Shown: positions 25,268-46,660 of the stretch, one piece after another | How the letters are laid out: each line of letters starts with the position of its first letter | How positions within the stretch are numbered: position 1 is the stretch's first letter | From: a virus | Virus record (IMG/VR): IMGVR_UViG_3300045256_000273 | Span: 1 to 57,658 of that record | Direction: 5' to 3' (one strand) | DNA: 57,658 nucleotides | Made by a program: the position numbers and the translations under genes | Notes under the pieces: model-generated | Database searches by the model: none | What the model saw: only the letters and a program-made list of their open reading frames with translations | Told to the model about the DNA's origin: nothing

Positions 25268-28057
25268 TCAATACATCATCCAGGCGCCGCCCGCGCCCGT
25301 GTTGACTTGCGCGGGCGCGATCACCAGTCCCGCTTCCAATCCGTCGAGGCCGGAGTAGATGGGGTTCACGCCATTCATCACGTCGTTGCCGGTCGCGCCT
25401 GCCGCGAAGCCCGTGCTGGCGACATGGAAGGCAAGGTCGCTCGCATTGTTTGATTCAAAGTTCGGTTGGTCGTCCAGCCAGCCGCCGAGGCCGTGCGATG
25501 CGTCCGAGTTCTCACCTTCGGCGAACATGAACTGCGTGAAGTAGCCGCCTGGGCTCGGCACGTTGAGGCCGGTGAGCGTGATGGGAGCGCTGACCGGACC
25601 GGGAACTACGGCGCTATTGGTCGGGGAACAAGTCGCGGCGTAGTTGTAGGTGACATAGTGCAGGAACGTACCACCGGCCCCAAAAGTGCCGTTACCGTCC
25701 GGCGTGATGCTCCAGCTATCGGACGATGGATCGCCCGCTCCGCGCTGGTGGCACCAGATTTTGCACTCGGCGGTGCCGTTAGGCCCGACCAGATCGAACA
25801 GGGTGCCGCCGAGGTCGGACGGCGCGATTACGCTGGTAAAGCTTCCGTCCCACATAAAATTGAAATCGCCACCCATCGTGTTGCACAGCTCGACCACCAC
25901 CGGCTCATTGGTGCTGATGCCGGATGGATAAAGCGCCGTGGCGGTGACGGGCGTAAGAGTAAATGGCGTCGTGTTGTTCACTCCCGACCACTGCGTAATC
26001 GCCCACGATGCGGTCGGCGCACCGCCAGGGTAGGTGATCGACAGATTCGTTTCGCTTCCGTTCGAGATTTTCCACAGAATGACTGAGTTGTTATGGATCG
26101 ATGTCAGAACGTGCCAGCCAGTCGGCACGTTGAACGGGCGATTGCCGACGCTGGCGGGATTCGTTCCAACCTCGGCGGCCAGCAGGATATTGCCCGAGGT
26201 CGGCGTCGCAACCATCGTGACGGTGCAGGGGGTCGCAGAGCAAGTCGATGTCGCCGAGTTGACGAATGCGACGGTGTCGCCCGGGCCGGTTGGATTGAAC
26301 GGGATGAGCGCCGAACCGCCCTGTGCGCCCGTTACCACCGTATCGGTATAGGGACCGTAATTGCCCGCCGCCGTCACGCTCTTGTCGGCGATGCTGATGC
26401 CGTAGGTCGATGCATCGCCCATGCTGACGCGCGACGTGAGGCCGGCGTCGGCGGTGATGGCCTCCTTGGCGAATGTGGTGGTGACATCGACAAGATGAAC
26501 TGGTACGGACCCCTGCCCTGTGATCGTGCCGTTCATCACACCAGTATTGTTGTTTTCCAGCTCCGCAATGCGCGCCGAGCTGGTGTTGTCAAACAGCGGC
26601 CACCAGTAGGTGGGCTGCGTTGCCAGCGCCTTTATCTGCGCATCAAAGGTGCCGTCGTTCATGTGGGAGAGGACGGAGGCAACCTGCGTGCTCGACAGCG
26701 CAGTGCTCATCCAGATTGCGACTTCGCCGATCCGCGCCTCGATGAAATTGCTGGTCGGTGGGTCTGCGGGGCTGTTGTTCGGAACGGAGCAGCCAATGGT
26801 CCAGAAGGCATTGCTATACGCGGTATAATTGGTGGTCGTCGATCCGACCTGTCCGTTCTCGTCGTAAAGGTGATCAACGGTTCCGTCGTACACCCGCGCA
26901 AAGCAATGATTCTGGCCGTCGTTATAGGTGTGCGTGCCGCTGGTAGTCTCGACTGAGACTGACCCGTTCCACTGGTCATCAACGATATGGCCGGTGTTAT
27001 CCATCCAAACACGGGCACTCTGAAGGTTGCCGTTGCAACCGTTGGTGGCGGAAATGATGAATCCACCCTGGTTGTACCCGCTCGGGACGTTCATGCAGAA
27101 CATCTCAGTAAATGGTGCGCTCGCGCTTTCGCCGATAGTGTTAACAGCCGTGGTCACGTAGTTGTCCACGCCGTTAAAGCCCATCGACAAGTCGGGCGAT
27201 GCGATGGTAGCATTCTGAAAGGTGTGAACCGCCGAATTGTACCCGACACTCTTGTACTGCGTACCGGTCGTATTCGTCGTCCAGTTATTATAGATGCCGA
27301 CGGGCGGAACACGCCCAACGGTGTTGTGGGTTCCGGCGTCGCCCGCCTTGATGGCGATCTGCTGAGAGTTAAACGGAATGCTGCCGTTGGTGATGACCGC
27401 CTGCGGAACCGACGCGCCGGCAACGTCCTGCGTCATGTAAGTGGCGGCGGCATTCGCGTTGCTGTAGAAAATCGGAATCTGCCCTTGCTGAAACGGATCG
27501 GCGTTCGTTACCGTGTCGGCTTGGCCGAAATTGTAATAGGCGATGACGAGTTCATCCGCCGCAGTCGTTGTGAGCGTGTCGGTCGTGCCTTGGAAGGAGG
27601 TTCCGTTGGACTTGCCGGCGCTGATGGCGTCAACTACCGGCACATTGCCGTCAGAATCCGCCACGTCGAATAGCTGGCAGGCTCCCAGCAGCGTGCTTGC
27701 GTTCGACACCGTGCAGCTTGCCTGTCCGCTTGTAACCGTGATGGCGTTCCCCTGCGCCTTGAACCAGCCCGACGTTCCAACCTCGGTCCATGCGGTCGTG
27801 CAGCCCGACGTGTTGGTGCCATTGCCGATGGTCGAGCCATGGCCGAAGTTCATTACGAGCAGGTCGTTTGCGCCCGCGACCGGACCGACGCCCTGGTGGT
27901 TATTGAACGGAAGCGTTCCGATGTTGAGGTAGCACGTCCCGCTGGTCGCATTATTAACATATGGCCCCTGCGACCAGTTGCGCAGATAGAGAGCGCCGGC
28001 AGCGTGCGCAACGGACGCCCACAGGAGGAACGCAATCAGCGCAAAAAACCGCTTCAT
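25268..28057 (-). CDS. Large exported LamG-like surface protein
   Basis: 929 residues. A clear Sec signal peptide (MKRFFALIAFLLWASVAHA, cleavage after AHA). The mature chain is Thr/Ser/Asn/Gly-rich beta-sandwich sequence. A concanavalin/LamG-like domain is suggested near 320-480 (SMGFNGVDNYVTT, HCFARVYDGTVDHLYDENG, IGEVAIWMSTALSSTQV). Cysteines come in pairs, as in periplasmic proteins. It looks like a phage receptor-binding or adhesin protein but carries an export signal, which ordinary tail proteins lack. Confidence 0.6.
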   Translation of the reverse strand: MKRFFALIAFLLWASVAHAAGALYLRNWSQGPYVNNATSGTCYLNIGTLPFNNHQGVGPVAGANDLLVMNFGHGSTIGNGTNTSGCTTAWTEVGTSGWFKAQGNAITVTSGQASCTVSNASTLLGACQLFDVADSDGNVPVVDAISAGKSNGTSFQGTTDTLTTTAADELVIAYYNFGQADTVTNADPFQQGQIPIFYSNANAAATYMTQDVAGASVPQAVITNGSIPFNSQQIAIKAGDAGTHNTVGRVPPVGIYNNWTTNTTGTQYKSVGYNSAVHTFQNATIASPDLSMGFNGVDNYVTTAVNTIGESASAPFTEMFCMNVPSGYNQGGFIISATNGCNGNLQSARVWMDNTGHIVDDQWNGSVSVETTSGTHTYNDGQNHCFARVYDGTVDHLYDENGQVGSTTTNYTAYSNAFWTIGCSVPNNSPADPPTSNFIEARIGEVAIWMSTALSSTQVASVLSHMNDGTFDAQIKALATQPTYWWPLFDNTSSARIAELENNNTGVMNGTITGQGSVPVHLVDVTTTFAKEAITADAGLTSRVSMGDASTYGISIADKSVTAAGNYGPYTDTVVTGAQGGSALIPFNPTGPGDTVAFVNSATSTCSATPCTVTMVATPTSGNILLAAEVGTNPASVGNRPFNVPTGWHVLTSIHNNSVILWKISNGSETNLSITYPGGAPTASWAITQWSGVNNTTPFTLTPVTATALYPSGISTNEPVVVELCNTMGGDFNFMWDGSFTSVIAPSDLGGTLFDLVGPNGTAECKIWCHQRGAGDPSSDSWSITPDGNGTFGAGGTFLHYVTYNYAATCSPTNSAVVPGPVSAPITLTGLNVPSPGGYFTQFMFAEGENSDASHGLGGWLDDQPNFESNNASDLAFHVASTGFAAGATGNDVMNGVNPIYSGLDGLEAGLVIAPAQVNTGAGGAWMMY

Positions 28058-28060
28058 TTA

Positions 28061-29650
28061 CTACCGCGTGACCTGCACGGACCAGGTGACGTTACCGCTG
28101 ACGGTTGCTGGTGCGTCGAGTTCGCATTTCTCGCCGGCTGCCGACGCATGGCTGCCCGTCGTAGTCGAATAGCTCGCCGCACACGACGTGCTGACGGTCA
28201 GGGTCGCGAGCGTCGTGCCGCCGCATTTCAGCGTATAGGCGTCGCTTTCGCTCGGATTTGTCGAGCAGCTTACGAAGGCATTGGAAGCGCCGAAGGTCGC
28301 GGGCCATGTGACCGCGATTGGCACGGGCAGGTGGGACACCTGACTGGCGGAAACAGCGCCGAATGGGAAAACAACACCGGTGGTCGTACCGGATAACGCC
28401 CCGGTCGGCACGTTCGAGCATGTCGGGACCGCATGACCAGCGGAGATCGCCGTCACCACCTGATTTGTGCAAGTTCCGCCGGTTACATGGCCGCCGCCAC
28501 CCGGTGCCGAGAGGGACGCAATCTCACCCGGCGGAAACAGATCGAAAGTGTAGGTTCCACCGGTCGCATTCGTGGACAGGACCGTTCCGATGAGCTGCGT
28601 GGTGGTCGGCTGAGACGTTCCGCAATCATGCAGCTCACCCGCAGACGTAGTTGACGCACAAACGAAATCGCCGGACGTGGTTGCTCCGTCGAAAACCCCC
28701 GACGCGAACCCCGTCACCTGTACGGTGGCCGTGCCTGTCGTTCCGCATCCGGTTTTACAGATTCCAAGGATACCGCTGGTATCGGCAGTGCTGATGGTTA
28801 CGGCCTGCCCAGAACCATTGTTCTTGATAAGTTTGCCGGTGGCCGTGCCGGTCACGCCGTCATTCGACCATAGCTCGTAAACCGACTTGGATTGCGTGGC
28901 GATATTGGCGTTCGAGGCCCCCGTAACATCGCCCGAAAGGGTGACGGTCCCTCCGGTCGATCCGCTAATCTCCGGCGAAAACAGGTCAACGGTGTACGTC
29001 CCCTGGCTGATGTTCGTGCTAAGAACTCGGCCGATGACCTGCCCCGACGCGGGATACGTCGCGCCCGCATCGTGGCAGGCTCCCGCTGTCGTCGAACTGA
29101 TCTGTACATAGTCGCCGGCCGTAGTCGCGCCGTCGAAAATGCAGGACGCGGTGCCCCCAAACTGGATCGTCGCGCTGCCGGTCGTCCCGCCATCCTGCGT
29201 CGTTATGCCGACTATCCCGCCCGTGTCAGTCGTAGCCGCTCGCACGGCTTTCGACGGAACGCCTGCCAACTTCGTCAGCGTATTATTGACGGTCCCGACA
29301 GAGGAATCGTTTGCGACGATAATTGTGGGCGCAATGAACGAAACCGGCTGCCCATTGAGTTCGTAGCCCTTGAGCGAATTGATGAATCCGTCGAACGTGC
29401 CAGTGTTCGACAATCCAATGTTGATCCAATTGCCGCCAGGAATGGTCAGTTCGTTGCTGATGGTGAGGTTATTGAATTGGCAGTTGAGCCCCCACCCGCA
29501 GGCATCGCCTTGCGTCGCGCCTTGCCCGAGCTGCTGGAGCAGAAAGCCGTTCGCGTTGGTGTTGGCGGTCCAAGGCGAGGACTGCGCGAATGCGACTCGC
29601 GCCGCAATCAGCAGCGCGAAAAGAAACAGCCCGACTCGCCTCAGCGCCAT
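28061..29650 (-). CDS. Exported fibre-like protein with internal duplication
   Basis: 529 residues. Sec signal peptide VGLFLFALLIAARVAFA with cleavage after Ala22. Two homologous units of about 100 residues (127-226 and 273-374) share KAVxxxTxDTxGIxGI, FDGATTxGD and IGxVLSTNxxxGTYTxDLFxP. This resembles phage fibre or decoration repeats. A C-terminal domain (450-529) follows. Like its neighbour it combines fibre-like content with a secretion signal. Confidence 0.6.
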   Translation of the reverse strand: MALRRVGLFLFALLIAARVAFAQSSPWTANTNANGFLLQQLGQGATQGDACGWGLNCQFNNLTISNELTIPGGNWINIGLSNTGTFDGFINSLKGYELNGQPVSFIAPTIIVANDSSVGTVNNTLTKLAGVPSKAVRAATTDTGGIVGITTQDGGTTGSATIQFGGTASCIFDGATTAGDYVQISSTTAGACHDAGATYPASGQVIGRVLSTNISQGTYTVDLFSPEISGSTGGTVTLSGDVTGASNANIATQSKSVYELWSNDGVTGTATGKLIKNNGSGQAVTISTADTSGILGICKTGCGTTGTATVQVTGFASGVFDGATTSGDFVCASTTSAGELHDCGTSQPTTTQLIGTVLSTNATGGTYTFDLFPPGEIASLSAPGGGGHVTGGTCTNQVVTAISAGHAVPTCSNVPTGALSGTTTGVVFPFGAVSASQVSHLPVPIAVTWPATFGASNAFVSCSTNPSESDAYTLKCGGTTLATLTVSTSCAASYSTTTGSHASAAGEKCELDAPATVSGNVTWSVQVTR

Positions 29651-29979
29651 ATCACGTCAACGGTGCAGGCTGTGTTGCCGCTTTCGAGAACGGCGGCCCA
29701 GCCGACTCCGAGGCCCGCATCCGCGCCGGACGCCGCGCTGCTCAGCGCATCGTGAAACGGAATCGCACTGTTTGGCGCCAACTCGTAAGTGTTGGACGGT
29801 GCGGCATTCGGGGGCGCGGCGGTGGTGTACGGAAAAATGAGGACCGGAACGGCGCTCGCCACCCGGTTCTTGATCCATAGCGCCGCAGCAACGAATCCCG
29901 GCGCCACGAGTGACACCGGAACCGTCGCCGAGTTCACGCTGACGGTCGCGACATTGACCGTAGGATTGTACGTCGCCAT
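29641..29979 (-). CDS. Hypothetical structural protein
   Basis: 112 residues, beta-rich (TVNVATVSVNSATVPVSLV, VPVLIFPYTTAAPPN). Overlaps the next gene by 10 nt. No signal peptide. Probably a small virion or decoration protein, from position between internal virion and fibre genes. Confidence 0.5.
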   Translation of the reverse strand: MATYNPTVNVATVSVNSATVPVSLVAPGFVAAALWIKNRVASAVPVLIFPYTTAAPPNAAPSNTYELAPNSAIPFHDALSSAASGADAGLGVGWAAVLESGNTACTVDVIWR

Positions 29980-29980
29980 C

Positions 29981-30244
29981 TCAGTTCAGAACCTCCGCCT
30001 TTTTCTTCGGCTTCGGTGCCGGCGGCTCGAACAGCGTCTCGAACACGCCATGCGGCATGACAAGGCGTTCGCCAGCGACGCTCACGATCCAGTCGCCTTT
30101 GACAATCGGCACGTTGCCGCGCGCGGTCGCGCATCGGAAATCCATCGGCCCGAAAGCCCAAGCGCCGTCAGGGTAAGGCTTCGCCGGGTCGAATTGGACC
30201 GCCTCGACGAGCGGAACGCCTGTCTTTGTCTGATAGGTCGCCAT
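29981..30244 (-). CDS. Small protein with PGDW-like motif
   Basis: 87 residues. GNVPIVKGDWIVSVAGERLVMPHGVFETLFEP matches, in part, a short phage domain built around a (P/K)GDW/Y turn and a terminal beta-hairpin, seen in many phage genomes without known function; only its pattern is cited here. Lysine-rich C-terminus. ATG 30244 in a TGATG overlap. Confidence 0.55.
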   Translation of the reverse strand: MATYQTKTGVPLVEAVQFDPAKPYPDGAWAFGPMDFRCATARGNVPIVKGDWIVSVAGERLVMPHGVFETLFEPPAPKPKKKAEVLN

Positions 30245-30477
30245 CACATTCTCCGTCCGCGACCGCGATGCTTGCGCCGGCGTGCGATCTTCCTCATGTT
30301 TTCGGCGAACACCGCCCGCTTGCGCGTCTTCGGATTTCGCGAGTGTTCAGCCTTGCGGATCTTCTTCTCGGTGAGGTGGCCGCCCATCTGGCGCGTGAAT
30401 GCGCCAACGGTGCCCTTGCGCTCCATACGCTCGCGCGCTTCCTGGAGGAACTTTCGCGTCCTCTTCTTGCGTGCCAT
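30244..30477 (-). CDS. Strongly basic small protein
   Basis: 77 residues, about 40% Arg/Lys (MARKKRTRKFLQEARERM, RKIARRRKHRGRGRRM). Highly basic helices suggest nucleic-acid binding, perhaps packaged with the genome. One of several such genes in this operon. Overlaps its neighbours by 1-3 nt. Confidence 0.55.
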   Translation of the reverse strand: MARKKRTRKFLQEARERMERKGTVGAFTRQMGGHLTEKKIRKAEHSRNPKTRKRAVFAENMRKIARRRKHRGRGRRM

Positions 30478-30644
30478 TACATTCTCCTTCCCGACTTCGC
30501 GCGCTGCTTGTCGCGTTTGCGCTGGATGAACTTGCGCTCGAAACTCGTACGCAATTCGCGCGCGCCGGTCGTCCGCTTGCCTTCGCCGCCCACTCGCGCC
30601 CGCTTGCGCAGAATGAGGTCTTCGGCGCCCGTGTCAAAAGCCAT
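30477..30644 (-). CDS. Strongly basic small protein
   Basis: 55 residues from ATG 30644 with GAGGAG 9 nt upstream; the longer frame from 30761 reads the neighbouring small gene. Basic C-terminal helix (FERKFIQRKRDKQRAKSGRRM). Likely nucleic-acid-binding virion component. Confidence 0.55.
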   Translation of the reverse strand: MAFDTGAEDLILRKRARVGGEGKRTTGARELRTSFERKFIQRKRDKQRAKSGRRM

Positions 30645-30786: not shown

Positions 30787-30953
30787 TTTCTGCGACTCCC
30801 GCGCGAAATGCCGCGTCCTTTGCGTACGCGCCGCCGAATGCTGATTTGACCGCCGCGCCGTTCGCGACGCAGTTTGCGACCCTCTTTAGAGTTTGGGCCG
30901 AACTTCGCCATCAGAAACCGCCACTGGCGTCCAGTTACATCACTGTTGGGCAT
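30783..30953 (-). CDS. Strongly basic small protein
   Basis: 56 residues from ATG 30953 (GGAAGG upstream). Begins TGRQWRFLMAKFGPNSKEG and becomes Arg-rich (RRVRKGRGISRGSRRK). Overlaps the transglycosylase stop by 14 nt. First of the four adjacent basic-protein genes in transcription order. Confidence 0.55.
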   Translation of the reverse strand: MPNSDVTGRQWRFLMAKFGPNSKEGRKLRRERRGGQISIRRRVRKGRGISRGSRRK

Positions 30954-33036
30954 CGGCTGGCCCTTCCGCTTCGGCGCGCATCGCCGCGTTGAACGCCGCA
31001 ACCGCGAATCGCGCCGCCGTCTGGGAATCCTTGCTGGCTAACGCCTTCTCGAATAGCGCCATCGCCGGACGCGAATGCGCGACGATCTGATAGCCCTCGA
31101 TTCCAAGGAGGCCCGCGCCCGCAATCGTCGCTTCCTGGAAGCCGAATGTCTCGCCGCCCGCGATGAGCGCAGCACCCCATATCGCGCGATGCTGCAAATA
31201 ATGCGCAAGCGGCGCGAGCACTGGCGATTCGAGATATTCCCTGACCTTGGCTGCGACCGCCGCCGCCTCATCGGGATGCGCGAGTAGTTCCTTGTGCTTC
31301 GCCAGTACCTCGTCGGCGGTTCGCAACCATTGTTTCTTTGCGCCCGCCCCATACAGCTTGTTAAAGACTTCAGTATCGACGCCGCTGACAGTTTTCTTGA
31401 GGGCGCCCAGCCGGTCGGCCATGTTGTTCGCGCCTTCGCTTTCCGCCTTTTGGTAAAGACGCGTGGCAAATCCGCGGCGCAGCATTCCGAGCTGGCCGTT
31501 GACTTTCATTTGGTCGATGACTTCCGCGACGCGGCCGGTGTCGCCTTTCCCCGCTTTCAGAATGGCCTCAGCCGCCCCCGGCACCGTAAAAGCCTGACGC
31601 ACGCCACGGAGAGGAAAGCGCGCAACTTGGCGAGCGTAATAGGTATCCAGCGCACGCCGCTGCGTTGCCGCCGTTGGCCCGATAACCCTATCAATGTCGC
31701 CTTCGGCGGATTTCTGAAGTTCCCCGAGCACCGAAAGCGCGATGCGGTCTTTCTTGGGATCCAGATTGCGGGCGAGCTTCCGCATCTGGCTCAGGATGAA
31801 CTGTTCGCGCCGGACAGTCATCGGCGCGCTCTCGATCTGCTCTTGCAGGTACTTCCGCATCGGCTTGCCGACGAGTTTCAGCATCGGTCCACGCGCCGCG
31901 AATTTCTGCGCAAGGTCGTTCGCTGTGCGAACATGCGCGTACGGCGCAAGCAGCTTGTCGTACTCCGTCCCGAGATCGCGAAGTCCCCGCTCCGAAGTCT
32001 CCTCGTAAGGTTTCCGCAGCACGCTTGCAGGTGCCTGCTCAAGCTGCTTGGCGACCCGAGGGGAAGTCCCAAGGGTTCCTTCAAGTGCCGCCTCGGCTGT
32101 CCGCGCCTCCTCGAGCGCGTCGCGGAAACTTTGACCAGTTGCGCGCATGATTGCGGCAGCCTTGCGGAATCGCGGAACAAGAGGCAGCAGACCCCCGACC
32201 GCAGAACCAACGCCACCTACTGCCGCTTCTTCGCCAACGCTGACAGGCGGCAGTCCGTAGGCTGCACGGATTTTGTTCTCAGCTTCGGCGCCGGCCGCAG
32301 AGCCAAGCGCGCCGCCCGTGGTTGCGCCGACGTATTCCGGTACGCCCGTTTCGCCCGCACCAGGAATCGCGGCGCCACCTATCGCGCCAAGCGCCTCTCC
32401 GCCGAACTGCCCAACTGCGGGCAACCATCCGGCGAGACGCGCGCCCAACGGCTCCGATTTTTCGGATGACGTAGGAACCGCCGCCGGTACGGTCGTTTTT
32501 GTGATAGGCCCGTAATAGGGAACGAACTTCCCGTCTTTGTCTTTGACGTATCCGACCGGCTCCGCCGCGTAGGCCGTCCCTTCGCCCATGAGGCCGCCGC
32601 TGAGCACTTTCGGGAGCGTCAACACATTTGACGGTTGCGCCGCTTGGCCGACATCGGGCATCGCCTGACTGCGTATTAGCGACGGCATGTCGCCGCCGCC
32701 GCCCAAAACCTTGTTTGCGTAGGCCTCCGATGCCGCCGGCACGTCGCCCTTCGCAACGCGAGTCGGGCCTGCATTGTAGGCTTCAAGCGCCAGCCGCGCG
32801 TCTCCCTTGAAGCGTTTGAATAGATCGCGAAGATAGGACTTTGCCACGCGCCGATTCGTCGCAGGGTCTGTCAACTGCTCCGGCTTCACGCCGTACTGAC
32901 GCGCAGTCTGCGGCATGATCTGGAACAGACCAATTTCGCCCTTACGGCCGCGAGCGAACGGATTGCCCGAGGCGTCCTCAAGCATCCCCATGCGGTTGAG
33001 AAGGGTGTCGAGATCGAAATTTGGCATCGCGCCCAT
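30940..33036 (-). CDS. Internal virion protein with lytic transglycosylase domain
   Basis: 698 residues. Residues 20-110 are a soluble lytic transglycosylase domain: GEIGLFQIMPQTARQYGV, VAKSYLRDLFKRFKGD, ALEAYNAGPTRV. The remainder has Ala/Gly-rich hydrophobic stretches near 210-300 (SAVGGLLPLVP) and long helices. This matches ejection proteins that digest the cell wall as short-tailed phages inject DNA. Start in a TGATG overlap. Confidence 0.72.
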   Translation of the reverse strand: MGAMPNFDLDTLLNRMGMLEDASGNPFARGRKGEIGLFQIMPQTARQYGVKPEQLTDPATNRRVAKSYLRDLFKRFKGDARLALEAYNAGPTRVAKGDVPAASEAYANKVLGGGGDMPSLIRSQAMPDVGQAAQPSNVLTLPKVLSGGLMGEGTAYAAEPVGYVKDKDGKFVPYYGPITKTTVPAAVPTSSEKSEPLGARLAGWLPAVGQFGGEALGAIGGAAIPGAGETGVPEYVGATTGGALGSAAGAEAENKIRAAYGLPPVSVGEEAAVGGVGSAVGGLLPLVPRFRKAAAIMRATGQSFRDALEEARTAEAALEGTLGTSPRVAKQLEQAPASVLRKPYEETSERGLRDLGTEYDKLLAPYAHVRTANDLAQKFAARGPMLKLVGKPMRKYLQEQIESAPMTVRREQFILSQMRKLARNLDPKKDRIALSVLGELQKSAEGDIDRVIGPTAATQRRALDTYYARQVARFPLRGVRQAFTVPGAAEAILKAGKGDTGRVAEVIDQMKVNGQLGMLRRGFATRLYQKAESEGANNMADRLGALKKTVSGVDTEVFNKLYGAGAKKQWLRTADEVLAKHKELLAHPDEAAAVAAKVREYLESPVLAPLAHYLQHRAIWGAALIAGGETFGFQEATIAGAGLLGIEGYQIVAHSRPAMALFEKALASKDSQTAARFAVAAFNAAMRAEAEGPADAQQ

Positions 33037-34073
33037 CAGGGATTCGGCGCTCCGTAAATGGGCGTGCCGTCAGGGGTGTAGCCGATGATCGGCGGCTCAC
33101 TCGACTCACTCAGACGACCGGCCCGCACGAGAGTCGCGCGGTCCTGGCGCATGATCTGCCGTGCGGTATCGACGGCGCTCTTGAGCGCGGGGAACGTCTG
33201 CGCGTTATTGAGCCGACTCACGATCAAGTTTAATTCAGAATTGTTGATGCGACCTACACGCGCGAGCTCGCGCACATACGAAATGATGCCCGCTTTAGCG
33301 TGCTCGTATCCCGCATATCTGGGATCGACTTTCGCAAGGATGTACCGTTTCGCCGGATTGATCGCGATGTCGCGCACAGTCTCCCCGATTCCGGTCGGCA
33401 CTTTCTTGGGGAGGACCATTCCGCCTGCTTGAAGTAGCGTGTCGAGGTTCTTTTCGGCTGCAATCGAATTTGCGAACTGGTCGGCGTCCTTGTCTGTAAG
33501 AAGAATCCCGCCGCGCCTTGCCGCTTCGCCTACAGTCATCCTTGGATCGGGCCACGGCTTGCCGCCCGGCGTCAGCATCGTCCGCCCCGTCAACGCGCCG
33601 ATGGGCGTATTTTCGAACTTGGCCTGCTCCGGGAGCGCCGTCCCTTTAGGAAAGGCCTTAAATACGGTTTGGTCGCCAGTCGTTTCCAACAGACCAGGGA
33701 CGCCGTTCTGCATGAACACTTCACTATGCGTCAGTAGCTTCGGAGGCGCCGCCTTCTGCGCCCGTTTCCGCAGCACCGCCTCGTCGAGCTTCGGCTGAAT
33801 CGCCAAAAACTCGTCGCTCGAATACCCCAGCATCCGGTTCACGTCGTCCGGCGTCAGAAGGCCCTCATTGACGTATCCCTGAAGAATCCGTGGACGGTTC
33901 GCCTGCTCGAACTTTTCGCGCGCGCTCTTGTCGATGAAGCCCGCACCGGCGCTCGCAAGGCGCCCCAGCGGCGAGCGTCCGCCGAAAAGCGATCCGACGA
34001 GCCCGAGGATGTCCGCGCTGGTCGGCTCCTGAAACCTGGTCGGCTCCTGAAACTGCGTGCTGTCGTCAGCCAT
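33036..34073 (-). CDS. Putative internal virion / ejection protein
   Basis: 345 residues. The N-terminus carries a short duplicated motif (FQEPT twice), then Gly-rich SLFGGRSPLGRLASAGAG, then a mainly helical body. C-terminal part has GYTPDGTPIYGAP. No specific family; placed among internal virion genes between the transglycosylase and small core proteins. Confidence 0.5.
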   Translation of the reverse strand: MADDSTQFQEPTRFQEPTSADILGLVGSLFGGRSPLGRLASAGAGFIDKSAREKFEQANRPRILQGYVNEGLLTPDDVNRMLGYSSDEFLAIQPKLDEAVLRKRAQKAAPPKLLTHSEVFMQNGVPGLLETTGDQTVFKAFPKGTALPEQAKFENTPIGALTGRTMLTPGGKPWPDPRMTVGEAARRGGILLTDKDADQFANSIAAEKNLDTLLQAGGMVLPKKVPTGIGETVRDIAINPAKRYILAKVDPRYAGYEHAKAGIISYVRELARVGRINNSELNLIVSRLNNAQTFPALKSAVDTARQIMRQDRATLVRAGRLSESSEPPIIGYTPDGTPIYGAPNP

Positions 34074-35174: not shown

Positions 35175-35177
35175 TTT

Positions 35178-35747
35178 TCAGTTTCTCCTTGCCGCCAGCA
35201 GCGACGGCACGACAATTCGCCGGTCGGACGGCGCGGCCAGCTTCCCGGCCGAAGGCTGCTCGACCTCGAAATGCATCAAATGAAGCGCCTTTGGCTGCGT
35301 GAAGCCGAGCGGAGCCAAGTAGCGTGCCCACACTTCGGGATCCGCCGGACCGACAAATTCCATGCTGCTGAGCGGCGCGACTGCCGGAATATAAGGCACG
35401 CGCCCACGGAAAGCGTTGATTTCGTCGATCCACGCGCGGAGCTCGCCAGCCCACGCGTGCCGGTCCTCGCCGACCAACCCTTGCGCCTGAAACGCGAAAA
35501 TCGTCATCACGCCGAGCTGGTATGAGAGCCACGAGCAAACGTGCGCCCGCAACGCGCCGTCGCCATCACCGAATAGCCAATAGCCGCTCGCGACCGGCGT
35601 CATTGCAAAGCGCTGGCGAAGTTCCGTCGCAAGAAGCGCTGGCTGATGCGGGACGCCGACCTCCTTCGCGTACTCAAGCACGCGCTTCTCAAAGGCCGGA
35701 TATAGCCCCCAGCTTTCCAAGATGTCTCCGCGAATTCGCGTTATCAT
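35178..35747 (-). CDS. Hypothetical virion-region protein
   Basis: 189 residues from ATG 35747, which overlaps the previous stop (ATGA). Contains YWLFGDGDGALRAHVCSWLS and FVGPADPEVWARYLAPLGF, which distantly recall a GNAT-like acyltransferase core, but no acetyl-CoA loop can be fixed. Function open. Confidence 0.5.
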   Translation of the reverse strand: MITRIRGDILESWGLYPAFEKRVLEYAKEVGVPHQPALLATELRQRFAMTPVASGYWLFGDGDGALRAHVCSWLSYQLGVMTIFAFQAQGLVGEDRHAWAGELRAWIDEINAFRGRVPYIPAVAPLSSMEFVGPADPEVWARYLAPLGFTQPKALHLMHFEVEQPSAGKLAAPSDRRIVVPSLLAARRN

Positions 35748-36106
35748 CGGATCGCCACCCAATCGACGCTGAGATTGCCTGCTGGCGGACTGCTCAGCGT
35801 GGCCGAAAACCCAGTGGTATTTTTCGCTACCGAAGAAAAAGTCCCCATCGGCGCTAGGATAAGTGCGTAAGTGTTGTCCGGCATCGGCGCCGTAAACGTC
35901 GCGCTCTCCGTGGCGGTGTTGGCGGGGTACGTCAACGTTCCGTACTGAACCTGGGAGATCCCGAGCGTCACGAATCGCGCCATCATCGCGCCCCAGTTGT
36001 TTTGGAGCACGAACCTGACCTGCTGAACGGCCTCGTAGGCGGCTTGGTCTTGCGGACGCGGCGGCGCCGGCAGCGGGAGCCCCAATGGCGCTTGAACGCC
36101 CATCAT
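35744..36106 (-). CDS. Small beta-rich structural protein
   Basis: 120 residues. Pro-rich start (APLGLPLPAPPRPQDQ), helix, then a beta-rich C-terminal half (TATESATFTAPMPDNTYAL, SATLSSPPAGNLSVDWVAI) like a small fibre or decoration domain. Overlaps the tail protein stop by ATGA. Confidence 0.5.
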   Translation of the reverse strand: MMGVQAPLGLPLPAPPRPQDQAAYEAVQQVRFVLQNNWGAMMARFVTLGISQVQYGTLTYPANTATESATFTAPMPDNTYALILAPMGTFSSVAKNTTGFSATLSSPPAGNLSVDWVAIR

Positions 36107-37653
36107 TCGACCCCTTCGCCCGTCAGGTTATAGACGCCCTTGTTCACGACGTTGACCTGGACGTAAGCCCCAATAAACGCAAGGCTCCCCGGCGACGTGC
36201 CGCTGAGCGCAACTTGAATCCAGTTGTAGAAAGTCGAGCCAGGGGCGTCCACGCCGGGCGCGGAAATTACTTGAAAATCGCTTTCTTTGTAGGACATCAG
36301 GTAGGCCGGACTGAGGTCTTCGATGTTCCCGATGGGCGTTCGCAGACCGTACACGCGAAACGTAAGGATGTCCTTCGCGCTCGACGGCTCTATGAAAGCC
36401 TCGACGGCCTGAATCTGCATTTTTTCAAGCGATGCAGTGCTCCGAGGCCCCCAAACTGCTGTAAACGGAATCTGCGCGCCGTTGTCTCCGGTGTCGGTGT
36501 CGTACTCGTAAAGCTTGCCTAAGCCATCGCCGATGAATGCGGTTGGCCGATAGGTCGAAGTCGCCCCACCGAACGGCCCGCTGAAACCGCAAGTGAATGC
36601 TTGCTGGTATTTCGCCGGCGGCTCCCAGCGATTGAAATCGAGCGAATAATAGACTGCCTGATCGGGGTCGCTGCCGGTGGTCGGGAAATGGAATCGAACG
36701 TGACGGTCGGACGGGGAATAGAACGCAAAGGACCGCCCGATGTTCGCAAAGTTGATGTTGTCGAGAACGTACGACTGGATCGGAATGCCGAAGTTCTGCG
36801 GGGCGAGCCCATTGAATGTCCAGATGCGGCCGTCATTACCGAGGAAGTAGTGCGTACCTTCGATTGCGACGATGGCGGCGGTGCTGGCCGGCCCGACGAC
36901 ACCCTCGCCCAACGCAAACTCTTGAAACGCGAAGGCGTTGGCGTCGTCGCCGACCTGGGCGTTCATCTGCCACAGATTCTGCTCCATGTAGATGTACGCG
37001 CTCAGGTTGCCGAGACGGACCGCCGCCGCGATTCCGCTGCCAGGGTCAACGAGATCCGCGACTGCCTGCACCGGGAAACTTGTCGGATTATTGAACGCCG
37101 ACCAGCGCACGCGATTGGGATAGAACACGCCGCCCTCGGTCGTGCCGACGACCACAAGCCGGTTGGCGAGCACGAAAATGTCAATCGCGTTCTCGAAGGG
37201 CAATCCTCCGACCTGGGTGATGCTCGCGCTTCCCGGCGTCCACGAAATCAGGCCGTTTTGGCCGTCCACCGCATAGAGCGTATCGGTGCCATTGACAAAA
37301 ATGACCGCGAACTCCGTGAAGTGGTCGGCCGACCCGCTGAGATTGCCGGATAGCTCCGTAATCGTGCCGGTCGCGCCGCCGCTATAGCTCCACCAACGAT
37401 TCAGTCCCGCCACGACCGTCCGCACCGCGCCATTCACGCCAACCCAGCTAATCCCGCCTGTGAACCGTTGTCCGGCCTTGCTGTCCGCAAGCAACGAGTA
37501 GCCCGAGCGCACGCGAAGCATGCCGGTCTGGTCGCAGAAGACGTTGTACGACCCCGCCGCCAGCATTGCGGGGCTGAGCTTGTGGGCTGGCAGGTCGAAA
37601 CGAGCGCCCTCGACCGGCGACACGATCTCGACGGTTTTGGTCCCGCGCGGCAC
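36103..37653 (-). CDS. Tail hub / DNA-stabilisation protein (P22 gp10-like)
   Basis: 516 residues. The opening (FDLPAHKLSPAMLAAG then NVFCDQTGMLRVRSGY) and repeated blade-like strands (YAVDGQNGLISWTPG, YFLGNDGRIWTFNG) suggest the beta-propeller tail protein that plugs the portal in P22-like and related podoviruses. Size fits. Assignment is by pattern, not search. Confidence 0.6.
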   Translation of the reverse strand: MPRGTKTVEIVSPVEGARFDLPAHKLSPAMLAAGSYNVFCDQTGMLRVRSGYSLLADSKAGQRFTGGISWVGVNGAVRTVVAGLNRWWSYSGGATGTITELSGNLSGSADHFTEFAVIFVNGTDTLYAVDGQNGLISWTPGSASITQVGGLPFENAIDIFVLANRLVVVGTTEGGVFYPNRVRWSAFNNPTSFPVQAVADLVDPGSGIAAAVRLGNLSAYIYMEQNLWQMNAQVGDDANAFAFQEFALGEGVVGPASTAAIVAIEGTHYFLGNDGRIWTFNGLAPQNFGIPIQSYVLDNINFANIGRSFAFYSPSDRHVRFHFPTTGSDPDQAVYYSLDFNRWEPPAKYQQAFTCGFSGPFGGATSTYRPTAFIGDGLGKLYEYDTDTGDNGAQIPFTAVWGPRSTASLEKMQIQAVEAFIEPSSAKDILTFRVYGLRTPIGNIEDLSPAYLMSYKESDFQVISAPGVDAPGSTFYNWIQVALSGTSPGSLAFIGAYVQVNVVNKGVYNLTGEGVE

Positions 37654-38021
37654 TACTCAGCCTCTCCGGCGCCGTATAGGATTCGCTGGAGCGCCTGAAG
37701 CCACTTCGGCGTCTGGTCCTCAGTGATCTTCAATGACTGATTGACGCCAAGCTTCCGCAATGGTTCTAGCGTCCTCGCCAATGTCCCGTTATCCACAAGG
37801 TACTGACCATATCGGTTGTTCGCGAGCGGAGAACCGATCAACCGCAGGAGCGCCATCTGCGCAGCAACTCGCGCGGCTGTCGCCGGACCGAACACTACAC
37901 CGGTCGCCAATCCCGTGACTGGATCGATGGTCGGTGCCTGCAACGCTTCCTCGTCGGCAGTCGGAATCCCCGGCGTTCCGGCCATCTTTTGAAGGTGGTC
38001 CATGATGTCCGCCAGCGGCAT
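37653..38021 (-). CDS. Hypothetical structural protein
   Basis: 122 residues from ATG 38021 (TGATG overlap; a GTG one codon earlier is possible). Helical, with PVTGLATGVVFGPATAARVAA. No family. In the head-tail gene block between two structural genes. Confidence 0.45.
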   Translation of the reverse strand: MPLADIMDHLQKMAGTPGIPTADEEALQAPTIDPVTGLATGVVFGPATAARVAAQMALLRLIGSPLANNRYGQYLVDNGTLARTLEPLRKLGVNQSLKITEDQTPKWLQALQRILYGAGEAE

Positions 38022-39157
38022 CACTGACCCCCTTGCGGCTGCGCCTCAAGGTACATCTGGCTCGAAAACTCAACTGCGCCGTTCGTACGCGTAAGCTGAA
38101 GTTGCAGGTAGTAGCGTCCTGTGTACGGAAACCAGCCGCTGCCGCTCGTGCAGTAGGCGTAATAGCCGTCGGGCGCGAGCGTCAGGTCTTGGCTTTGGGT
38201 CGTGCCGTCCGGCCGCGTCAGCAGTAGCTTGATCTGGCTGTAGAGTGCGGTTGAAAAGAGCGACCGCGGCCCCGCCTTGTGCGCCGGCCAGACTCGAAGC
38301 AGATAGCCGACGCTATTCGCGATGACTCGCGGCTCCTGCGAGTACACATAGCCGTACTCGGCGGGGTTCAGATCGAGCGAGGTGTAAAGATCGATAGTCT
38401 GATTGGGGATGTAACCGTTGTCCGGCCACAACGAAAGCGCGTGCGTGACGAGAGGCGTCTGGATGGTCGTGCCGGTCCAATCCGCGCCGGTTTGCAGCCC
38501 CGATGACACCACCGATATGTCGGCGAGCGCAATCGCGATTCCGCTGCCGTTGGCCGTCTGGAGTCGCGAAGTATAACCCGTTGGCACCGTCAGGCTCGCC
38601 CAGCCGGGCGTCGCCAGCACTGCCAGTTCGAAATCCGCAACGTTCGCAAAGAGGTCGGGCACGACCGCCGATGACACGGGATTGAACGGGCCCGCCGTCT
38701 CGGTTTGCTGCGACGCGCTGAACGACAGCGTTAGCGGCGGCAGATTCAGCAGCGAATGATTTCGAATGGCAACCGCCTGGCTGACATTCTCGTAAGCTGC
38801 GGTCAGCGCAACGCCCGCAATCGACCCCGGCGCGGCGCCGATGACAGCCGTTGGCGCGCTCAGCACCGGAAAGACGTAAGGCGGGTCGTCCGCCGGCGTC
38901 ACGAAATGCGTAAACACCGCATACGAGATGCTGATCGGTGCGGGATTCTGTGCTGCCGCCAGCGTGGAATCGACCGTCGAGAAGGCGTCAACCTGATTCC
39001 AGCCGGGCGACGACCAGATGCCGCCCGCGCTCGGCGCTGCGAACACCGCAATGAGAAAGTCGCCAACCTGCACGCCGGCGGGCTGGTCGATCTTCCAGAA
39101 ATTTTGCGCCGTGTTGAAATCCGCCTCGACGGCGCTGCGGAACGCGATAGTCGCCAT
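38021..39157 (-). CDS. Putative virion structural protein
   Basis: 378 residues, beta-rich with many Ala/Ser/Thr/Pro (VQVGDFLIAVFAAPSAGGIW, ISISYAVFTHFVTP, IAIALADISVVSSG). C-terminal domain (285-378) looks like an immunoglobulin-like sandwich (GRYYLQLQLTRTNGAVEF). Probably a tail or fibre component. Confidence 0.5.
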   Translation of the reverse strand: MATIAFRSAVEADFNTAQNFWKIDQPAGVQVGDFLIAVFAAPSAGGIWSSPGWNQVDAFSTVDSTLAAAQNPAPISISYAVFTHFVTPADDPPYVFPVLSAPTAVIGAAPGSIAGVALTAAYENVSQAVAIRNHSLLNLPPLTLSFSASQQTETAGPFNPVSSAVVPDLFANVADFELAVLATPGWASLTVPTGYTSRLQTANGSGIAIALADISVVSSGLQTGADWTGTTIQTPLVTHALSLWPDNGYIPNQTIDLYTSLDLNPAEYGYVYSQEPRVIANSVGYLLRVWPAHKAGPRSLFSTALYSQIKLLLTRPDGTTQSQDLTLAPDGYYAYCTSGSGWFPYTGRYYLQLQLTRTNGAVEFSSQMYLEAQPQGGQ

Positions 39158-40077
39158 CAGAGAATCCGCGCGCCCGGCGGCCCTTCAAAGTCGATCTGCT
39201 GGATGATTTCGTAGCCGGGACGATAGTTCTGTCCCTGCTTTTGGCCCTGCCGTTCGATGTCGTCGTTGATCGCGCGCTGCCGCTCCTCCTGGTAACGCTT
39301 GTCGGCGGCCTGCGCGGCGTTCATCCAATTGGCGCTCCCCTGCGAAGCGTACAGCGCCAGATAGCACAAGCTGAGCGCCTTGTTTTCGAGGACACTGACG
39401 GGAATCTGCGGCCAGTCGTTATCGGCGACGAGCGGCTTGAACCGCTCGCGATACTCGATCACGAAGGACTGCACGCCGCCGGGGCGCAACCAGAGCTCCA
39501 GCCTGACGTTGCCTTGGTTGTCGTATCCGCCGATGGCCCATGCGACCGAAGGCGTTGAAGTGCCGGCGAGCCGCGCGGGATCGAGTAGGTGCAGCATGAA
39601 GCGCGACACCGGCAGCACTGGCAGGATTTGCCGAACTAGGTAAACCTGCGCGCCGCCCGGAACGGAATAAAACTGCGGACGCAGATCGAAATTGACGTTG
39701 CTTTGCGACACGTCGCCCCACGGCTCGCTAAGCTCAAGCTCGGTCGGCGACACGAAACGCTCGACGTTGAGCGGCATATACTGCGAGCCCAGCATGACAA
39801 CCCAGTTCTCAGGCGGGCAGTAGTCCGGCAGGCTGTCGGGCATCGGAAAATTCGTCTCGTAGCCAACGACGGTCTTCGAGCCGTTCGTCAGGCTGACGAC
39901 GCCATTGACGTTATCGGGAATGCCCCAGATGACGCCGGTCTTGAACAGGGCCGACCACTGCCACGACTCGATTTCTTCCTCGAGCGCCTGGTTGACGAGC
40001 GTGCCGATGTCCGCGTCCGCAAGCTGCCCCATCGTTAGGACTTTGAGGCGATTTCGGACTTGCTTAAAGGTCGGCAT
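39157..40077 (-). CDS. Putative head-tail connector / tail accessory protein
   Basis: 306 residues. The N-terminus (KQVRNRLKVLTMGQLADADI) and C-terminal helix (AQAADKRYQEERQRAIND) flank a beta-rich centre. Similar two-part proteins follow the portal/capsid block in podoviruses as the adaptor ring or tube protein. Assignment by context and composition. Confidence 0.45.
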   Translation of the reverse strand: MPTFKQVRNRLKVLTMGQLADADIGTLVNQALEEEIESWQWSALFKTGVIWGIPDNVNGVVSLTNGSKTVVGYETNFPMPDSLPDYCPPENWVVMLGSQYMPLNVERFVSPTELELSEPWGDVSQSNVNFDLRPQFYSVPGGAQVYLVRQILPVLPVSRFMLHLLDPARLAGTSTPSVAWAIGGYDNQGNVRLELWLRPGGVQSFVIEYRERFKPLVADNDWPQIPVSVLENKALSLCYLALYASQGSANWMNAAQAADKRYQEERQRAINDDIERQGQKQGQNYRPGYEIIQQIDFEGPPGARIL

Positions 40078-40086
40078 TGTTCTCCC

Positions 40087-40584
40087 CTAGAACGGCACGC
40101 AAGTCGTGATTTCCGCGGGCGCTTGAGCGCCCACGCCGGGGTCGTACGCGCGAACCTGATTGCAGACCAGCCGAGAGACTGGCGACCCGAAGCACACGTG
40201 AAACTCGCGATGCGAAGACGGCGCGGCGGGCGCGAAGGAGCAATCGCGTCCGTCTGACATATCGCACGTTGCGCGAGAAACGCTTTCGTACTGAAGAGTC
40301 AGATAGTATTCGTCGGCCGCCCCCGCCGGCGTGAGATAGCCCGCACCGCGGCCTTGCACAAAGATATTGCCACGCTGCCCGAGAATTTGGCCGTCGTAGG
40401 TGGCGTCGAACGTCAGCGTGAGGTCGTCGTTAACGACCAGACGCTCGACCTTGGAATGCTGCCCGATATACGGTGCTTCGGGGTACGAACGCTGTCCCCA
40501 GACTTGGCAAACAAGCCGAGTTGCCGCCGCAGCCGTCGGAGCGAGCCCGAGGACGAACGATAGGGCTAGCGCGACGCGCCTCAT
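40087..40584 (-). CDS. Exported Cys-rich small protein
   Basis: 165 residues from ATG 40584 (TGATG overlap). Sec signal VALALSFVLGLAPTAAA with cleavage before ATRLVCQ. The mature part has six cysteines in pairs and is beta-rich (RLVVNDDLTLTFDATYDG). A periplasmic, disulfide-bonded partner of the preceding fibre-like protein is the simplest guess. Confidence 0.6.
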   Translation of the reverse strand: MRRVALALSFVLGLAPTAAAATRLVCQVWGQRSYPEAPYIGQHSKVERLVVNDDLTLTFDATYDGQILGQRGNIFVQGRGAGYLTPAGAADEYYLTLQYESVSRATCDMSDGRDCSFAPAAPSSHREFHVCFGSPVSRLVCNQVRAYDPGVGAQAPAEITTCVPF

Positions 40585-42524
40585 CACGACGCCCCGTTCG
40601 GCACTCGGTAGCCCTGCACTTGCAGCCACAGCGCCTGCCCGGTCGTATTTGTCGTTCCTAAGTCCCACTTGTAGTACGGACCGCCGGAAATGTACGGCAG
40701 CTCGATCCACCCCGAAGTTCCGCCCGCATTCGCGTTCGAGATCGCGGCAACGCGAATGTTGAAGAATGCCGTCGAGACGTTCAGCGTGCCGCTTACCAAG
40801 GCGATATAGACGGCCATGTCGCCGCCGGTCGTCCCCGGCGTCCAAAGCGCTCCGTAGAACAGCTCGTATTGCGTGGCCGTCGAGGGCACGAAGGATGCGA
40901 TCGGGACGTTCGTCGAAGTCGTCGCGGAACCGGCGTTCAGTAGCGCCTGGTTCTGCTGGTAGTACACCGTGTTGCCGCGAACGTACATTGACAGGAGATT
41001 GCCGGAGCCGTCCGTCAAAAACGTGCCGAGGTAGGCCCAAGCGGTGTAGTTCGTCGGCAGCGTCGGCCCGGTCGGCGGCGCCGTCAGGGACGCCAGCAGC
41101 GCGGCCGGCTGCCCGCTGCCCGTAATCGCGTACAGGTGAAAAAAGACGTTGTTCCCGAAGGCCGCCGCCTGATCGCGACCGTTCGCTTGCGAGCCCGTTT
41201 GCGCGCCCACGACGAGGTCGTTTGCGCTGAACGAAGTAGTCAGCGTCGCGACCTTAGTGGTGGGATTGATCGTGATGACCCGGTCCGCCGTCACGTCAAA
41301 TGTGGTCGTCGGATTCGTGCCATCGTTCGCACCTTGCAGATTTACCGATCCGTAACTCAACGGCGGCGCGGCCCAAGACGTTACCCCCGAGCCATCAGTT
41401 TGAAGCATTTGGCCGCTACTGCCGTTCGTCGTCGGAAATTCAAACGTGGGAGTCCCCGCCGCAGCGGGCACCGTCAAGGTCGCCTGCCCCGAGCTCGACC
41501 CGGGGAGCACGATCTGCGGCGTGTTCACTTGCGCTGAGGCCGTAATCGTCGTACCGGATATGCGTCCGGCGCTTATCTGTCCGGTCGTATTGATGGTCGG
41601 CGGCGCGGCCCCTGGCGCTGCGGACCCGGTATCCTTGTAGGTCGCGGTCCCGACGGTCGCGAGCAACCCGAGCGACCCCGCAACCCGCCCGTACACGTTA
41701 TACCCGCCGTGGCACGCGGAGTTCCCCGTCCACGTCAACGTGTTAAAGTTGCTCGCCGAAAGGCTGGCCGCATTCGTGACCGTCTGGCTCGCTGACGGTA
41801 CGGACTCCCCCTCGTCCCCGACACAAGTGATCTCGTAGGTGTAAGTCGTGGTGCAGGTGCCCGTACACGTTCCGCCCGCCGAAAGCGCCGGCGCGGTCAA
41901 CACGCTCAAATCGAGCTGGTTGATGTTGATCCCGCTCCAATTGTTGAAGTTGAGCGTGTTCGTGATGGCGAGATTGCCGGGCGGCCCCGAGCTCACCAAC
42001 CAGTCGCCTAGCGTCGCGTCAACCAGCGTCGCTGCCGCGTTCTGGATGTTCAGCGCGAAGCTTGAGCCGCCGTTAATCTTGTCCGAGCCCGCCGGCGTGA
42101 TCGTGCAGGCGTTCGACGTGCTGTCGGTCTTAAAGACGTAAATAGTAACGCCCAGTCCGCCGGACGCCGGCAAATCGACCGCGATCGGTCCGGTGGCCGC
42201 GTTGCAATCGACGATGGCCGACGTGACCGCACAGGGCGAGGTCGTGCAGGTCTGCGCCGTCAGATGCGTGCCGATGATGTGGAAAATCCCCGGCGACACC
42301 AAGCTTACGTCGCCGGTCGGCACCAACAGCGAATAGCTGAACTGAGTGTTGCCGAAAGGTATCGTCTCGTACGGCGGATTCGCCAGAGACGTAAGCGAGT
42401 TGAGAAGCTGATTGTTGGCTTGGTAGGTCGAAGTGCCGGTGGACGGCGGCGACTGCGCGCGCACGCCCCACGCCAGCAAGGCGAGCGCCAGAACCGTCGT
42501 CGCAGTCAGGATGAGTTTCTTCAT
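40584..42524 (-). CDS. Exported tail-fibre-like protein
   Basis: 646 residues from ATG 42524. Sec signal MKKLILTATTVLALALLAWG, cleavage after VRA. The mature chain is Thr/Ser/Ala/Gly-rich with fibre-like repeats. A fibronectin-like segment lies near 220-305 (CTTTYTYEITCVGDEGESVP), a trimer-type neck (GQISAGRISGTTITASAQVNT) follows, and the C-terminal domain binds or caps. It lies just behind a strong terminator, so expression may need read-through. No typical ribosome site precedes the ATG. Confidence 0.6.
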   Translation of the reverse strand: MKKLILTATTVLALALLAWGVRAQSPPSTGTSTYQANNQLLNSLTSLANPPYETIPFGNTQFSYSLLVPTGDVSLVSPGIFHIIGTHLTAQTCTTSPCAVTSAIVDCNAATGPIAVDLPASGGLGVTIYVFKTDSTSNACTITPAGSDKINGGSSFALNIQNAAATLVDATLGDWLVSSGPPGNLAITNTLNFNNWSGININQLDLSVLTAPALSAGGTCTGTCTTTYTYEITCVGDEGESVPSASQTVTNAASLSASNFNTLTWTGNSACHGGYNVYGRVAGSLGLLATVGTATYKDTGSAAPGAAPPTINTTGQISAGRISGTTITASAQVNTPQIVLPGSSSGQATLTVPAAAGTPTFEFPTTNGSSGQMLQTDGSGVTSWAAPPLSYGSVNLQGANDGTNPTTTFDVTADRVITINPTTKVATLTTSFSANDLVVGAQTGSQANGRDQAAAFGNNVFFHLYAITGSGQPAALLASLTAPPTGPTLPTNYTAWAYLGTFLTDGSGNLLSMYVRGNTVYYQQNQALLNAGSATTSTNVPIASFVPSTATQYELFYGALWTPGTTGGDMAVYIALVSGTLNVSTAFFNIRVAAISNANAGGTSGWIELPYISGGPYYKWDLGTTNTTGQALWLQVQGYRVPNGAS

Positions 42525-42572: not shown

Positions 42573-42632
42573 CGGTCGCGCCTGCCCCGTAAACACGACG
42601 CAAGGCGTTAGTGACCTGTAGCCGCAGCGCGA

Positions 42633-46615: not shown

Positions 46616-46660
46616 GCCTCAAGCTTTGCGGGAAAAATCACTATCGCCGCAATAGCGGAC

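Follow-up and report, generated by a model that had tools for sequence, protein, structure and literature searches.

The sequence analysed here, IMGVR_UViG_3300045256_000273, is a single IMG/VR virus record of a soil phage, with 57,658 bases and 62% G+C; at its full length it is referred to as the window. Its late genes, from the terminase through the fibre slot, all lie on the minus strand. Four of them were described in an initial annotation as encoding fibre-like proteins with general secretory (Sec) signal peptides, and all four open reading frames (ORFs) are present where that annotation placed them, on the minus strand, with predicted Sec/signal peptidase I (SPase I) signals. These genes, named below by their first coordinate, have the following features (aa, amino acids; Cys, cysteine).

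25268..28057, minus strand: predicted exported fibre-like protein of 929 aa in the tail-fibre slot, 14 mature Cys, signal called by our own scorer
28001..28057, minus strand: predicted Sec signal of the 929-aa protein, 19 aa if cut after AHA
28061..29650, minus strand: predicted exported fibre-like protein of 529 aa, containing twice a domain that also occurs in exported soil-phage tailspikes, 14 mature Cys
28970..29287, minus strand: first copy of this repeat domain, residues ~122-227 of the 529-aa protein
29585..29650, minus strand: predicted Sec signal of the 529-aa protein, 22 aa, cut after AFA
40087..40584, minus strand: predicted exported protein of 165 aa, 6 mature Cys, its start overlapping the end of 40584-42524
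40522..40584, minus strand: predicted Sec signal of the 165-aa protein, 21 aa, cut after AAA
40584..42524, minus strand: predicted exported fibre-like protein of 646 aa, encoded between the capsid and the tail-tube genes, with 8 mature Cys
40665..41423, minus strand: C-terminal module, residues 368-620 of the 646-aa protein, by homology to a podovirus tail fibre
42456..42524, minus strand: predicted Sec signal of the 646-aa protein, 23 aa, cut after VRA

Predicted signals and gene starts

Signals were called with a purpose-written scorer, not SignalP, that considers a positive n-region, a hydrophobic core and the -3/-1 rule. By this scorer, each of the four genes has a positive n-region, a hydrophobic core and an A-X-A-type cleavage site. 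From their called starts, they are the only genes with a Sec/SPase I signal among 26 terminase-to-fibre genes, a set that excludes the doubtful ORFs 46053-46622 and 51256-51675. Six of the 60 called genes were flagged in all: the four fibre-like genes, a holin-like gene (23654-23857, 67 aa) and a lipoprotein-like gene (20065-20694). The scorer was also positive at two internal GTG codons of 29641-29979. The cleavage sites first proposed were recovered for 28061 (AFA), 40087 (AAA) and 40584 (VRA), but for 25268 the scorer prefers AGA, three residues beyond the proposed AHA. The genes lie in two pairs separated by about 10 kb: 40584/40087 between the capsid and the tail-tube genes, and 28061/25268 in the tail-fibre slot. 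Because of this separation, a single late operon dedicated to exported adhesins, as first suggested, is unsupported.

Since the scorer is home-made, the N-termini could be read differently, not as working signals but as hydrophobic segments of cytoplasmic fibres, resulting from start errors, membrane tethers or chance. Paired arginines at the start of 28061 and 40087 would fit such a reading, as would longer possible readings of two genes: 40584 can be read from a GTG, but this reading runs through a terminator-like hairpin, and 40087 from a TTG, but it then overlaps the preceding gene. For 25268 and 28061, however, alternative starts are lacking. In both, the ATG is the earliest start codon following a stop, and codons 2-60 contain no other; therefore, the signal of these two genes cannot be a start error. 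The scorer's background also speaks against the alternative, with positives in 0/67 tubeB genes and 1/97 Cys-free downstream genes of at least 300 aa from the loci surveyed below, and in 2/36 opposite-strand ORFs. In a close contig (97.5-99.2% identical), the signals of 28061 and 40584 have changed (L10I and T7I, respectively), but the hydrophobic core is kept. The ratio of nonsynonymous to synonymous substitution rates (dN/dS) against this contig is 0.09 for 28061, 0.15 for 40584 and 0.12 for 40087 (from four changes); 25268 gave no result. With the Cys parity and the homologue starts described below, these observations make it highly improbable that the N-termini fail to act as signals.

Cysteine content and parity

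The four proteins are rich in Cys, with 42 in 2181 mature residues versus 28 in 5951 residues of the 22 other late genes (p = 5e-9). Their mature counts are all even: 8 in 40584, 6 in 40087, 14 in 28061 and 14 in 25268. Both properties agree with the initial view that the cysteines fit the periplasm. If proteins fold in an oxidising compartment, their cysteines should pair, and counts should therefore be even. Across the survey described below, the mature count is even in 55 of 62 complete signal-bearing, Cys-containing proteins (30/32 downstream, 25/30 upstream) and in 22/23 when one protein is taken per sequence cluster (p = 3e-6). The control, signal-less plus-strand genes, gives 186 even counts in 406. 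Exactly four Cys are present in 16 of the 30 upstream exported proteins with Cys. Parity is thus regarded as the strongest evidence, at the level of sequence, that the signals work, and it would be a sign of real oxidative folding in the exported relatives. Since it tracks the signals, it also counts against N-termini that are hydrophobic for other reasons.

Homologies of the four proteins

Residues 368-620 of 40584 match the C-terminus of an annotated environmental podovirus tail fibre (35.8% identity, 6e-15), a match found in four environmental records with equal identity and score. The matching tail fibre has a different N-terminus and no signal. The fibre-like nature first proposed for all four proteins is thereby upheld for 40584, through this C-terminal module, and for 28061, through the repeats of exported tailspikes, but not for 25268 and 40087, for which no homologue was detected. 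For 25268, no match was found in Pfam, PHROGs or PDB sequences; 25268, 28061 and 40584, searched singly, had none among PDB sequences; and tblastn of 36103 and 28061 against phages returned none.

Single-protein scans of viral contigs reached near-identical contigs only, but an alignment of the two 28061 repeats (A1) reached a wider set. The repeat domain is also found in five further viral contigs and one Acidobacteriaceae metagenome-assembled genome. A signal is present at the start in 7/7 loci with the repeat, or six if the near-identical contig is dropped, and 28061 aligns with two of the repeat-bearing loci over ~270 residues at 44-46%. A low-confidence model of the repeat gives Z 7.3 to a phi29 prohead chain (60 residues aligned, 2.4 A), 6.6 to head fibre gp8.5, 6.1 to SHP and 5.3 to gpD, with unrelated folds reaching 5.5 (a designed protein) and 4-4.6 (MoeA/gephyrin). 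The resemblance to phage decoration and head-fibre domains is suggestive only.

On bacterial contigs of Acidobacteriota (L036, L037 and L038), the 28061 repeat is found in large proteins, mostly with signals, possibly reflecting traffic between phage and host adhesins. Profile A4 matched three of 396 Acidobacteriota genomes, in some cases apparently in bacterial secreted proteins; L038, one of its matches, has no scored signal within its short locus.

A head-binding domain at the cleavage site

A profile search of the fetched loci recovered 54 copies of one N-terminal domain, which is the P22/Pam1-type tailspike head-binding domain. One copy without a signal, from L113, matches chains of 9vyg, the Pan3 tail complex (1e-6), and of 7eeq, described as the Pam1 'tailspike head-binding domain' (1.5e-5), and profile A6, from exported proteins, matches 7eeq at 3e-5. 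An AlphaFold2 monomer model of the exported protein L075:10883-13054 has a mean predicted local distance difference test score (pLDDT) of 62, with most of the domain at 67-86. It resembles 9vyg with Z 8.9 (88 residues aligned, 4.9 A), and the P22 tailspike and its head-binding domain with Z 7.6-7.8, where a Z below 8 is weak by itself. Another part of the model gives Z 8.3 to a tailspike depolymerase. The best Foldseek row (6o38, TM score 0.14) was not used.

A signal was scored in 27 of the 54 copies (L069 being counted twice), and their predicted mature start falls at profile position -3 in 13 of them and within the range -5 to -1 in 20. Of the 27 copies scored signal-less, five are signal-bearing by eye (L047, L050, L051, L081 and L115); in all of the remaining 22, the start codon lies 0-4 residues upstream of the domain. 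The domain is carried by 33 phage records, 12 of which were fetched and 11 of which had an annotated gene there; all 11 genes, eight of them from phages of named hosts, start the domain at methionine (Met) without a signal. The mature starts of the exported proteins coincide with the starts of the signal-less ones, and thus cleavage would regenerate the N-terminus of the cytoplasmic form. By these alignments, the exported relatives have simply gained a signal in front of the docking domain. Signal-less homologues, which the initial annotation would have taken to indicate mis-assigned starts, do exist, but they begin with Met where the exported proteins are cleaved; therefore, the signals are a lineage-specific addition. 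That the signals end where signal-less homologues start is a further argument against N-termini that only mimic signals. The tailspikes of P22, Pam1 and Pan3 thus share their head-binding domain with the mature N-terminus of many exported relatives and differ from them in that, in the fetched phage records, the domain begins at Met with no signal. The window's four proteins are without the domain.

The tailspike-like bodies of some exported relatives, seen by eye and in the L075 model, suggest another role for export: the spikes might leave the cytoplasm mainly as enzymes, for example to weaken the capsule or the outer wall from within ahead of lysis, with only a minority reaching virions. Phages are already described as exporting endolysins by signal peptides (PMC8951688; PMC8878798). 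Retention of a docking domain would make little sense for an enzymatic role, however, and searches of Pfam and PHROGs gave no catalytic family for the window's four, so that a mainly enzymatic function is improbable.

Exported genes in related loci

Exported homologues in related phages, which the initial annotation had proposed to look for, were found both among the repeat loci (7/7) and in a broader survey (28/40 loci). In three records (G001, G003 and G005), Cys-free putative internal virion proteins come first, and the next three genes all encode Cys-containing proteins with a signal; G002 likewise has three signal-bearing genes in a row. One exported protein of G002/L016 has matches to two families, phrog_4636 (tail spike, 3.5e-21) and phrog_23837 (virion structural protein, 8e-31). 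In G001-G005, the names 'internal virion proteins' and 'capsid' rest on gene position and on the likeness of the proteins to one another, not on family matches. Neither phrog_3287 nor profile A2 matched any of the six records G001-G006, which therefore resemble the window in gene organisation without sharing a tubeB that could be detected. The tubeB-like protein of the window, 36103, reaches the survey only weakly (L099, 9e-5).

The survey was picked by the tubeB-type proteins of G001, G003 and G005 and covers the best 80 of at least 507 relatives; its clade was entered via contigs with exported genes, and its 80 loci were chosen by tubeB similarity. Merging 12 near-duplicates left 68 distinct loci, of which 40 have at least 5 kb downstream. 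At least one signal-bearing gene (of at least 150 aa) is found downstream in 28 of these 40, and two or more in 15. Among downstream genes of at least 300 aa, a signal was scored in 35/50 with at least five Cys versus 1/97 without Cys (p = 8e-21). Several of the 15 Cys-rich genes scored signal-less are signal-bearing by eye (e.g., in L040, L047, L051, L072 and L081) and were counted as misses. A looser signal rule, which fires on 9/67 tubeB genes, was kept out of the main counts. In some loci (e.g., L045, L068, L075, L076 and L085), the signal gene lies before, not after, the Cys-free proteins.

The post-capsid family, Mx8 p64 and host genomes

A second family is encoded between the capsid and tubeB genes and comprises 39 hits, including L040:7144-8160; the main exported cluster accounts for 20 of them. 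Six members lack a signal (L044, L045, L046, L058, L115 and G005); they have 0-3 Cys and begin at the position of cleavage in the exported members, with an internal Met as the matching start in G005. This post-capsid family is a possible exported head fibre.

Among cultured phages, Myxococcus phage Mx8 encodes p64, in which a predicted signal directly precedes a tail-fibre-type N-terminal domain. The mature protein begins TRNSVGTYTLPGGNP, versus MPRNGSGTYLLPTGINP in BUCT555; in BUCT555 and ppBjS10J-1, the p64-type domain begins at or near Met. The predicted cut in p64 follows ASA and leaves T29 as the first mature residue. The Mx9 homologue of p64 is annotated as a putative tail fiber protein. 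By capsid, Mx8 belongs to the same podovirus lineage as the window. Unlike the window's four genes, p64 is encoded away from the structural cluster, is not homologous to them and is annotated as hypothetical. A second signal-bearing, Cys-containing Mx8 protein, p66 (L010:38169-38822), is encoded near p64.

Profile A7, for the head-binding domain, matched three of the 396 Acidobacteriota genomes, two with a signal and one (G199) without. One of the two with a signal (G247) has it on a 6.4-Mb contig, where the gene with the signal and head-binding domain precedes another scored signal gene and, by eye, a third. Profile A3 matched two of the 396 genomes: in G199, the stretch read around the match contains no scored signal gene, and in G224, the contig ends at the match.

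Predicted export and a proposed route of virion assembly

Tailed-phage spikes are understood to be made and attached in the cytoplasm. For the window, the sequence evidence makes export of the four proteins well supported, and we infer virion incorporation, together with translocation, cleavage, disulfides, timing, docking, and a behaviour of the window's four like that of their relatives. The account that we consider probable is that the four are late virion-surface proteins of the fibre or spike type that are Sec-exported, cleaved, disulfide-bonded in the periplasm and docked at lysis. The fibre- or spike-type proteins would pass through Sec, lose the signal peptide and form disulfides in the periplasm. 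The capsid, portal, tail tube and ejection proteins would stay in the cytoplasm, where the DNA-filled particle would be built. Once the holin opens the inner membrane, finished fibres would meet the particles, and fibre docking would be the last step. Of the two options raised initially, acquisition by virions outside the cytoplasm is favoured over surface display because the mature N-terminus of the relatives still carries a head-binding domain of the kind that docks on virions.

In a rather unlikely but serious alternative, the four would be exported receptor binders, either soluble or bound to a surface, that are not part of the virion, made late or by lysogens, and serving in receptor masking, against readsorption to debris, in a superinfection block or as host adhesins. 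Signals and oxidative folding are equally expected under this alternative. It weighs most in the window itself, where the four proteins have no head-binding domain and stand alongside signal-less fibre-like genes. In the relatives, however, the exported genes adjoin, and mostly follow, Cys-free putative internal virion proteins, where fibres are encoded, and the head-binding domain kept at the mature N-terminus would be of little use off the virion. Moreover, under the looser signal rule, with its 9/67 false calls on tubeB genes, only 4/47 low-charge downstream proteins with at least three Cys are signal-less; therefore, few signal-less fibres are left to do the virion's work.

Several observations weigh against virion docking of exported fibres or against its extension to the window. 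Acidobacteriota genomes also encode homologues of the 28061 repeat in large secreted proteins that have no clear phage context, and such bacterial homologues suit the non-virion alternative. The window keeps fibre-like genes that, by eye, are signal-less (38021-39157 and 35744-36106), so that the exported proteins need not be its only receptor-binding proteins. A profile search of the window in all six frames, at E up to 1, gave no match to a P22-type head-binding domain, and a search found no member of the post-capsid family there. No homologue was detected for 25268 or 40087, and the model of 28061 is poor (mean pLDDT 40.7) and unusable for disulfide geometry. Among relatives, 12/40 survey loci have no scored downstream signal gene, L062 encodes a signal-less head-binding protein beside two exported ones, and most of the six loci with a signal-less post-capsid protein have exported genes downstream. 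Finally, a terminator-like hairpin (CCCCCAGGC...GCCTGGGGG, then T7; ~42533-42575, minus strand), identical in the close relative, lies directly before the 40584 start; given this position, the exported pair 40584/40087 may have its own transcription.

A broader proposal, whose chances we judge evenly balanced, is a two-compartment morphogenesis in Mx8-like Myxococcus phages and in a large group of uncultured tailed phages that includes phages of Acidobacteriota, with completion of the infectious virion coupled to lysis. Head and tail appendages would be Sec-exported, oxidised in the periplasm and docked only once the holin merges the compartments.

Relation to known systems

Filamentous virions are assembled at the membrane. 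The streptococcal phage proteins PblA and PblB resemble tail fibres, and their proposed site of action is the cell surface of a Gram-positive host; they are not known to carry a signal peptide. A search of the open-access literature found no report of Sec signals on tailed-phage fibres; the signal peptides reported there are those of endolysins. In the J5a clade and UFJF_PfDIW6, these late phage proteins are described as passing through Sec before lysis, and they are lysis enzymes, unlike the window's fibre-like proteins (PMC8951688; PMC8878798). The receptor-binding virion protein G3p of filamentous phages is described as made with a Sec signal sequence, as predicted for the window's proteins, although the window phage is tailed, not filamentous (PMC8310372). 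Signal peptides are counted in two Bacteroides phages in PMC5723332, where the account of them does not tie them to fibres.

If the proposed route holds, virion maturation would be coupled to lysis, disulfide-stabilised receptor-binding proteins would be possible, and a receptor binder would be present in the periplasm before lysis. Mx8 p64 offers a cultured test case. In uncultured soil phages, signal peptides would mark fibre genes and may hint at the host, and the proposed route would account for 'hypothetical secreted proteins' in viral contigs.

Lineage and neighbouring genes

The structural genes around the exported pairs include the following.

49386-51284, minus strand: terminase large subunit, by family match
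46875-48713, minus strand: portal protein (phrog_156, 2.9e-13)
44167-45171, minus strand: major capsid protein of the Mx8/BUCT555 type by homology, a core gene without a signal
36103-37653, minus strand: virion structural protein (phrog_3287, 6.6e-26), "tubeB-like", named from position
30940-33036, minus strand: ejection-type protein with an SLT transglycosylase domain and no Cys, preceding the fibre slot

The capsid protein has matches in 16 phage records at 22-28% identity, including Stenotrophomonas phage BUCT555, Bradyrhizobium phage ppBjS10J-1 and Myxococcus phages Mx8 and Mx9. With a homologous capsid, a tubeB-type phrog_3287 protein and the order terminase-portal-capsid-tubes-internal proteins-fibres, as in Mx8/Pr-like podoviruses, the window is identified by sequence as a member of that group. 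The lineage is described in PMC10386132, where internal virion proteins and then fibres follow the tube genes. Genes for an integrase (16044-17318) and a Bet-like annealing protein point to a temperate phage. Near-DNA searches of phages and plasmids with the window gave no match, and the close relative IMGVR_UViG_3300005529_000088 has ~140 additional bases at 33619/33620.

Downstream of the exported fibre genes lie minus-strand lysis genes for a holin-like protein (23654-23857, 67 aa) and a GH108/peptidoglycan-binding endolysin (23854-24345). Between the fibre and endolysin genes, 24467-24655 (minus strand) has a good ribosome-binding site and encodes a 62-aa Flp/Fap pilin-like protein (Pfam 4e-5, below the curated cut-off). 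Among 42 other virus records, many of which are fragments, it had no match; a pilin of the Tad type would be an unusual thing for a phage to encode. The gene at 42691-43506 (minus strand), which precedes the exported pair 40584/40087 within the structural region, is glycosyltransferase-like by eye, with no Pfam match. The product of 21147-21683 (minus strand) resembles a dual-specificity/tyrosine phosphatase (PTP-SAK 2e-4, below the cut-off). Near the window end, 55715-56847 (minus strand) holds two genes that we take to resemble an IS3-type transposase pair.

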